Assembly: GCA_031261165.1 (NCBI GenBank)
Contig: JAISJU010000086.1
Location: forward strand, 1-38,534
Direction of reading: 5' to 3'
DNA length: 38,534 nt
Source: Prevotellaceae bacterium
GTDB lineage: Bacteria; Bacteroidota; Bacteroidia; Bacteroidales; Paludibacteraceae
Shown: positions 19,301 to 22,300 of the stretch, piece by piece
Numbering within the stretch: the first letter of the stretch is position 1
How the letters are laid out: the number at the start of each line of letters is the position of its first letter
The notes under the pieces: model-generated
Seen by the model: only the letters and a program-made list of their open reading frames with translations
Told to the model about the DNA's origin: nothing
The model's database searches: none
Program-made: the position numbers and the translations under genes

Positions 19301-22300
19301 CAACGCCGCGTAATAACTTTTGCAGTGGCTTGATATGTTTTTGTTTATATTCTTCAATCAAATAAGTAGCGCGGCTTGTGGAAGTAATAATATCATCATA
19401 AGCATTGGTTTCGCTCGTGAGTTTCGCGCCTTTTTCTACCATTAATTTTATGTATTTTTCCAGCGGATAACAGCGGTCAATAAATGCCTTATTAAATTTC
19501 AAACGCTTTTTCATTTCTTTATCCACGTCAGCAAGCGTTTGGCGCGTTTCATTATTAAATTTATTAATTTGTTCCACAATATCTATCAATGACATATTTG
19601 GCGTTATCTTCGGCGGCTTGGGTATGGCTGGCTCAACAAATGAAAGTTCCGTGTCTTTTTCCCATTTATCTATTTGTTTGGCAAATTCATTAATCGGCTG
19701 TCCTGTGTATTTCGGCTTTGGTGCCGCAGGCGCACTCGCCGCCATAAACCGCAGCCCTGTGTCCCTATTGTCCCCCCTGTCCCCCAAATTATCATACAGA
19801 AATATCTGGTCTTCACGCGCCACATCTTCTGTTTCTTCCGCCAAACTCGCGCGGCGTTCTTCGGTGGTCATATTCATACGAGCGGAAACATTACGCGCCT
19901 CTACTTCGCCCGATGTTTTATTGTAACTATCCTGCGGAAAATACTTTTGTTTCTGTCTTGCGCGGTAAAAATCTTCCATAATATCAAACATCTCGTTGCG
20001 TGATATTTCCCCTGTTTTTGCTTTTTGCGCAATGCTAATTATTTCGGGCGTTTTAAACCGTTTCGTTGGTAGAGAGATAAACCAATCCACAAATTTTTTA
20101 CGCGAATTTGATTTATCGTGTTCTGCGTATAAATCTGCGTATTCCTGTATATGCGCAGGCAAAGGCTCTCTAATCCCCTCAAAATATTTTGGATTACTCC
20201 CGTGAGCAAAACCCTCATCTTCCTGTATGTAGTGCTGTATTTCGTGTGCTATAATACCCCTTATTTCATTTAAGTTTTTTTCGGTAATTCCGGCAAAGTC
20301 GCCATCTTCCGTAAACTTTGTTGTAAAATTTACTTCAATCGTGTTTTTATTCCTGTCAAACCGACCGTTATACGATGGCGGTAAAAAAAGCGGGCGCGGC
20401 ATTATGTTTATTGTGGTTTCTGACAACTTAGGAAAAGCCTTTAATAATTCCGTATCTAAAATTATATCGCGTAAGTTACCGCTGTATTCCCCATTACTGT
20501 CTATTTTACTTGCATCAATGTTTATCGGCTCTGTTTCATACCGCCACTTCCCATCAGCCCCACGTTCCCAGCCGGTAGCCAACTTTATTTTTTTTGCAAT
20601 TTCTTTCTCATTTATTTGCAGGATTGAAATTAAACGCTTATCTTTGTGGTCAGAAACAACCTTATTGTTGTCAAGCGAGTTTGGTAATCGTGTAGCATCA
20701 ATGAGGTTTTTCTTTTCTATCAGCGTTAATTCGTGGTCATAATAATAACTGTCGCCCTTTTTCCCAACAACCATTTTTACGGTATAATCTTCCCCGCCTA
20801 TTTTCATACCCGATACATAATACCGATAACTGTCATATTTTCCGTTTTCTTTTGTATTTGGCTCTTCTGTTATAAAAATAGAAGTTTCAATAATTTGTGG
20901 TATTGCAGCAATAGATTTCAAGTGGGCATCGTCGCGCTCTCCGTGAGAAGTTACCTCATTTGCTCCCACGCGAGAAACTCTTATTGTTTCGCCTGTGTCT
21001 TTATTAGTGTAATCATTGCGCAAATGTTCTTTGATATACTCTTTTGCCGACTTGGGGTTTAGTTCATACTTCCCTTTGTATTCCTCCCCTGTTATCTCTA
21101 TCGGCTCGCTCGCTTTCAACTTTTCAATCCGCGCTTTCTTTTCGTCAAAAGCCGTTTCCATATCCCGCGCCACCGCCAAATTATCCAGCCGTGTAGTCGC
21201 CTCTTCCGCACGGTCTAAATTTGCCGCGCCCTGTTTGCCAATAAACTGAAACTGAGTACCATTTTTAGTTTCAGCCTGCGCCGCCCCACCGTCATTGCGG
21301 GCTTGGTTGCTGAGCGAAGTCGAAGTATGACCCGCAATCCCCTTATACTCCGCAAACGGCTTAACTCGCCGCCCATCAGCCTTAGCCCAGTCCCTAAATG
21401 TTTCCACATCAGTTTCGGTAATATTCCCTAACCCTTTCCAACCCTTCTCATAATTCGACAAATAAGCCGCCCGCGCCTCTTCCAAACTGTCAAACCCAAA
21501 CATCACCTTATGCTCATCAAAAGTCCCTTTTGTCCCATCAGTCCCTGCTTTATTTTGGTCAATCACAAAAACTTTCCCACTCAAAGGATTATCCCCCAAG
21601 AAAACATCAATATGGTCGCCGTCCCGCGATTCCGTATTGCCAAAATAACCATAAGTATTGTGCATTTTACTTTCCCAAGCCTTACCGTTTTCATCAACGC
21701 CGCGCCGCACACTCCCTTTCGGCTGCTCAATAAAAATATCAAAGCCCTGAATTTTCACGTGTCCCTTTCGGTAATTTCCCGCCTCTTTCTGCGCCTCTGT
21801 CGGGTTAGTATCCGTTTCGGCTTCCGCCGCCGCAATCTTATCCTGCAAATCCTTTAATTCTGTGTCATTGCGGGCTTGGTTGCTGAGCGCAGTCGAAGTA
21901 TGGTTGCTGAGCGCAGTCGAAGTATGACCCGCAACCCCCTGTTTAATTTCTTTCCCGGAGAGCAAATCCGCCGCCGCCCCATTCACAAACTCATCAAGCG
22001 ACAAGTCCTGTATCTGATTACTGTTAAGGTTGCGAATACCCGCATATTTTCCGATAAACTTCCAAACATCATTCAACCACGCCTTAATCTGCGCCCATTT
22101 CGTTAAAGATAAACTGAGGGGTCTTTGCAATAACGCCTCACCCCTGTCGCCTATCGCCGTTGCCAATGCCTCGCCGATTTTCTCGCGCTCACTTATTTTA
22201 GCGTAATAAGGATTGTCGGCTAAATTTTTGTAATAGTCGGTATCTTTTATAAGTTCCGCGCCGCGCTCGTACAATTCAGAGTTGTTTTGCTCAATAAAAT

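Follow-up and report, generated by a model that had tools for sequence, protein, structure and literature searches.

The closest described counterparts of the repeats reported here are the CGTC REPs, which have been reported in Bacteroidetes and seem to have no dedicated transposase (PMC3733652). The palindromic elements RPE-4 and RPE-6 of R. conorii were equated with CGTC elements in the same paper. In-frame tolerance of palindromes has been reviewed as a Rickettsia theme (PMC2229807). The Rickettsia palindromic elements RPE-1, RPE-4 and RPE-6, like the elements studied here, lie in the reading frame of conserved protein genes and are apparently tolerated there. RPEs measure 105-146 bp (PMC2229807), whereas our elements, found in a Bacteroidales genome and in a phage, are 27, 51 or 75 bp long and include nested forms. 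REPIN/RAYT systems (GTAG REPs) also consist of short palindromes dispersed as inverted pairs in a genome that encodes Y1 transposases. The protein that carries our repeats belongs to the phage polyvalent proteins, in which the inorganic pyrophosphatase domain InPase has been described in diverse architectures (PMC5512222).

We analyzed a contig of 38,534 nucleotides (hereafter, the window) from a genome of a Prevotellaceae bacterium. This genome, 3.04 Mb in size, is referred to as the host genome (G000; the window is its contig C171). Matches to portal, terminase and integrase mark the window as a phage or a prophage. It encodes a giant polyvalent protein (Table 1) with Pfam matches above the cut-offs to PBECR1, MuF_C, InPase, LPD3 and LPD38; the matches to ddrB-ParB and LPD23 are weak and fall below them. 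The protein is of the same multi-domain type as the published polyvalent proteins with PBECR, MuF_C, InPase and LPD domains (PMC5512222), and the embedded REPs are the only feature that distinguishes it from them. The InPase domain is a regular member of PF18823: besides matching the profile, it keeps the DGDHIDVF motif, and among 21 aligned sequences D129, D134 and E165 (numbering of the aligned segment) are invariant and D131 is nearly so.

The original prediction was that nested repeats of the same orientation bracket this domain. Both repeats are present, and their starts are 573 bp apart. The further copies that it named near the end of the ddrB-like domain, in the N-terminal linker and before a coiled coil are also there: two bare palindromes, two composites and a repeat of the 24-mer type, respectively.

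Table 1. Repeats and related features of the window (positions are those of the window; residues are those of the polyvalent protein)
Feature	Position	Strand	Reading or basis
Truncated palindrome, then composite REP	3756..3829	+	in frame in 274-aa ORF 3270-4094, GVAGHTSAALSNQARNDNSNQARND
Two tandem 24-mers	3842..3888	+	in frame in ORF 3270-4094
Three tandem 24-mer-type repeats	11720..11785	+	in frame in ORF 11529-12245
24-mer-type repeats	12477..12589	+	ORF 12315-12827
TGTCT/TCTTG runs	12262-12317, 12885-12933, 14399-14427, 30011-30059, 31700-31751, 34390-34493, 37209-37285
Polyvalent protein gene, 4188 aa	16308..28874	-	ORF list, Pfam
Right-hand composite REP, 51 bp; single 24-mer nested in a CGTC palindrome	21291..21341	+	- strand reads GIAGHTSTSLSNQARND, aa 2512-2528
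InPase (inorganic pyrophosphatase), PF18823	21381..21797	-	residues 2360-2498, Pfam E 5.9e-53
Left-hand composite REP, 75 bp; two 24-mers nested in tandem in the palindrome	21864..21938	+	GVAGHTSTALSNHTSTALSNQARND, aa 2313-2337
Two tandem 24-bp units in the loop of the left-hand palindrome	21878..21925	+
24-mer-type repeat of more than one unit, no palindrome	24012..24044	+	STSLSNRTSLSNR, about aa 1610-1622
Bare 27-bp palindrome	25359..25385	+	GVAGQARND, aa 1164-1172
Bare 27-bp palindrome	25398..25424	+	GIAGQTRND, aa 1151-1159; tandem, 12-bp spacer to 25359..25385
Composite REP	26733..26783	+	GVAGHTSAPLSNQARND, aa 698-714
Composite REP	26796..26846	+	GVAGHTSTSLSNQARND, aa 677-693; tandem, 12-bp spacer to 26733..26783

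The basic unit of the repeats in the giant gene is GTCATTGCGGGCTTGACCCGCAATCCC, 27 bp or nine codons long, with a palindromic stem of 8 bp. On the coding strand this bare form reads G-I/V-AGQARND. It folds as ATTGCGGG-CTTGA-CCCGCAAT, a hairpin of -13.7 kcal/mol (z -3.25). The composite form differs by a unit of 24 bp, GGTTRCTGAGCGNAGYCGAAGTAT (eight codons, HTSTSLSN), nested in the loop of the palindrome. The RNA structure of the composite is no better than that of shuffled sequences (z -1.0 to 0.3), and we claim no RNA function for it. Three of the six frames are open in the composite, and four in the bare form. The six palindromes of the giant gene all lie in one frame, and their pairwise distances are all multiples of 3 bp; the significance of this sharing is modest (p about 0.004 for random phase) and is partly due to stop codons in the other frames.

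The palindrome has most features of the CGTC superfamily. Members of the superfamily have a CGTC, TGTC or CCTC tag at one end, and nearly all copies read here have CGTC or TGTC in front of ATTGCGGG. The stem (8 bp, starting from AT) and the 5-nt loop fall within the limits of the superfamily (8-9 bp and 4-5 nt). Among the first 100 places in the host genome, the palindrome dimers comprise 21 HH (tags outside), 3 TT and 9 HT pairs; HH dimers predominate and TT dimers are rare in the superfamily as well. Both sets also have intragenic members. The unpaired tail is short and C-rich in both, but reads CCC(C) here and mostly CCA in CGTC REPs. There are two further differences from PMC3733652: a large subset of our elements has a nested 24-bp repeat, single or double, in the loop, and copies occur in a phage gene, while the word “phage” is absent from that paper.

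The GTAG tag of REPIN/RAYT elements was not found at the termini, which read GTC and CCC. We also considered a tie between these REPs and Y1 transposases. Two of the four Y1_Tnp loci of the host genome were read, and the flanks of both carry other palindromes, unlike in REPIN/RAYT systems; the proposed tie was therefore dropped. The absence of flanking copies at these two loci agrees with CGTC REPs, which show no association with transposase genes. The Y1 genes read (L092 and L093, contigs C36 and C188) have inverted repeats of their own, of the GGTGCATCGCACC type and CCGTCAGTTTCAACTGACGG.

The repeats are abundant throughout the host genome. It contains 205 exact palindrome cores (CATTGCGGGNTTG), 220 cores of the 24-mer (TGAGCGNAGYCGAA) and 39 composites; the reversed control sequences of both cores have no matches in it. 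We inspected 63 palindrome-type elements in 40 stretches in their context. Copies also occur in intergenic DNA, often as inverted pairs. The composite was not found in any other genome among the 393 of the order that were searched or in any IMG/VR viral contig. Genomes of most relatives contain no or few palindrome cores. Three relatives (G015, G080 and G097) have 63-110 copies of the 24-mer and no palindrome core, while two others (G050 and G083) have 23-30 palindromes and one or no 24-mer. The palindrome and the 24-mer thus occur as separate repeat families in these genomes. In one stretch of 0.9 kb of the host genome (C72:16410-17320) the 24-mer core is clustered densely, with 13 copies that for the most part alternate in orientation.

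Contigs C6, C28, C32, C49, C69, C75, C97 and C193 of the host genome start or finish in these REPs. The REPs probably fragment the host assembly. Since assembly does break at such places, the bracketing of InPase might be a product of contig mis-assembly at genomic repeats. However, the 12.5-kb reading frame is open through every element, and homologous blocks run on across the elements (in the relative L116 over residues 1151-1172 and in L124 over residues 2512-2528). We rejected mis-assembly because these blocks continue, and we consider it highly improbable.

In-frame copies are also found in host proteins (gene names were assigned from sequence motifs). The only rlmN found in the host genome (L094, ORF 1595-2869 of the stretch C117:3000-7500) contains two tandem in-frame composites, 38 aa in total. 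The insert occupies an apparent hairpin turn and is missing in all three relatives aligned at this site, with a net difference of 35 aa. Palindromes are read in frame in pdxB, in an rsmF-like methyltransferase gene and in genes of a type III restriction subunit and a ketoacyl-synthase, and in-frame inverted (HH) pairs are found in queA and in a CoA-dehydratase activator gene (L178 and L176; C178 and C51). Composites antisense to these genes are read in the GIAG/GVAG frame. The pdxB palindrome (L106, C22) holds a different nested repeat, TTTCGACAGGCTCAATG, in its loop; thus loop nesting has occurred with more than one partner.

The same frame and the same peptide at six places of the giant protein, often between separate blocks, could also suggest a functional tandem linker or cleavage peptide encoded by the phage, for example a site of the metallopeptidase region, with the host copies being secondary. 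We rejected such a function because the peptide is also encoded in unrelated host enzymes (RlmN, QueA); it is present in intergenic DNA as well, often in inverted pairs, and the relatives of the polyvalent protein do not have it. The chance that this explanation is correct seems to us very slight. In the polyvalent protein and in RlmN alike, a comparison with relatives, in which the sites are empty, points to insertions that keep the frame of conserved genes, as described for RPEs.

It was further proposed in the original prediction that the repeats sit at domain borders, are tolerated there as linkers, and could provide homology for swapping, deleting or adding domains. If so, InPase might have been gained through them. 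The two repeats that flank InPase share an exact word of 26 bp, compared with 8-10 bp for shuffled flanks. Since the distances between the palindromes are multiples of 3 bp, recombination between any two of them in the giant gene would preserve the frame; in the case of the InPase-flanking copies it would remove 573 bp (191 codons), InPase included. Nothing shows that such a deletion has occurred. InPase is 76% identical to the domain of one relative (L125 in G020), compared with 33-37% for two other blocks that the proteins have in common, and the homology ends near the repeats. However, InPase is 63-70% identical in L113, L114 and L126 too, and simple conservation also predicts high identity. 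Moreover, the homology ends at the same residues in relatives that have no repeats; the joint is thus simply the edge of the domain.

We compared the neighbourhoods of InPase in relatives gathered from genomes, viral contigs (searched with a 611-aa piece as the query) and named contigs. There are at least six different neighbourhoods. InPase precedes the block homologous to residues 2149-2310 in L113 and L114 and lies about 1.1 kb after it in L126. It follows the 2753-3031 block in L125 and L120, and in L035 it is found about 1 kb upstream of the 2537-3069 block. In L124 it is joined directly to LPD3, and no repeat is present at this junction, the alignment being collinear across residues 2512-2528. 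No flanking direct repeats were found at 35 other InPase loci: the longest direct word between their 400-bp flanks is 8-13 bp, near the values for shuffled sequences. Neither REP family was found in the relative loci scanned. Thus InPase occurs in many contexts without direct repeats, and the changes of its context in relatives do not coincide with the repeats; the proposed role in domain swapping, gain and loss is not supported by this comparison. We regard it as very unlikely that the repeats brought InPase into the protein. InPase, whose active-site acids are conserved, is one of the usual modules of such mosaic phage proteins, and its position is independent of the repeats.

The claim about domain borders held in part. 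Several elements of the giant gene fall between blocks that are conserved in relatives, and the left-hand repeat sits exactly between two blocks (2149-2310 and 2340-2513) that can be separated in relatives, which is also the expected appearance of a recombination joint. The palindrome pair at 25359-25424, on the other hand, lies inside a single block collinear with L116, in which this site is empty. The relatives with empty sites (L116 and L124) are only 35-50% identical to this protein. Tolerance of the repeats as linkers is supported both by the elements between conserved blocks and by the predicted structure, in which the right-hand element falls past the folded InPase core, into a tail of low confidence (from local residue 231 on, pLDDT does not exceed about 50). 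The left-hand element is partly drawn as prolonging the N-terminal helix. The protein thus tolerates the repeats as inserts, several of which lie at linkers, and does not owe its mosaic structure to them. Domain shuffling proceeds without them, and they were probably later arrivals in this lineage. As far as we searched, the composite is specific to the host lineage, and we therefore infer that it is younger than the shuffling. The order of events at the left-hand junction would be the same.

Repeats are not limited to the giant gene. The window contains 147 repeated 20-mers, compared with none in five random sequences of matched dinucleotide make-up, and 21 cores of the 24-mer, all on the + strand, compared with 2.6 expected. 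Its eight palindrome cores are also all on the + strand, and most genes are on the opposite strand. Runs of TGTCT/TCTTG units make up a third repeat type, located mostly between phage genes. A run related to this type is coding at 27024-27061 (EPRAKTQDTP), and the C-terminal peptide of a host ORF (L110) resembles this peptide.

Some copies may have arisen within the giant gene. The GGTTGCT variant is present at three of its four composite sites, whereas outside the window only three of 35 composites have it (Fisher p 0.008). In addition, the two tandem pairs have 12-bp spacers that are identical at nine of 12 positions. This suggests that some copies derive from one another by duplication or conversion within the gene, although the numbers are small and the variants may have other histories.

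Altogether, it is very probable that the repeats are copies of host REPs that spread in frame into a phage gene, as with Rickettsia RPEs. A family of short palindromic REPs of the CGTC superfamily would have expanded in a Bacteroidales host, and a second, independent 24-bp repeat would have become nested in the loop of part of this family. Copies would have spread between genes and into protein genes, including the giant polyvalent gene of the resident phage. The lengths of both units, 27 bp and 24 bp, are divisible by three, and half of the six frames of the composite are open; thus translation can pass through an insertion and add a short peptide, G-I/V-AG[HTSTSLSN]nQARND. Selection presumably purges frame-breaking insertions and so may leave copies in linkers and surface loops, for example on either side of InPase, and some copies in the giant gene are probably of local origin, by duplication or conversion. 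Insertion is the probable direction of change.

A bolder reading is that the two-family composite, with units that are multiples of three, has become a mobile coding-compatible insert in this host lineage and spread into the resident phage, and that its copies, all being in one frame in the giant gene, would form a set of interchangeable joints for in-frame loss or exchange of modules with the gene itself or with host copies. We consider this reading unlikely.

Rickettsia is the best-known source of palindromes that code for protein in frame. In this study they are found in a Bacteroidales genome, in a nested composite form, in conserved host enzymes and in a giant phage protein. The nesting of two REP families in one composite, and the occurrence of this composite in a phage gene, appear to be new; in the literature searched, whose coverage was incomplete, neither nested CGTC composites nor REPs within phage genes were found to be described. 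The finding also calls for caution: repeats at domain borders need not be recombination joints, as tolerated insertion gives an identical picture. Since the composite is so far known from a single genome, it acts as a natural tag that links the phage to its host.
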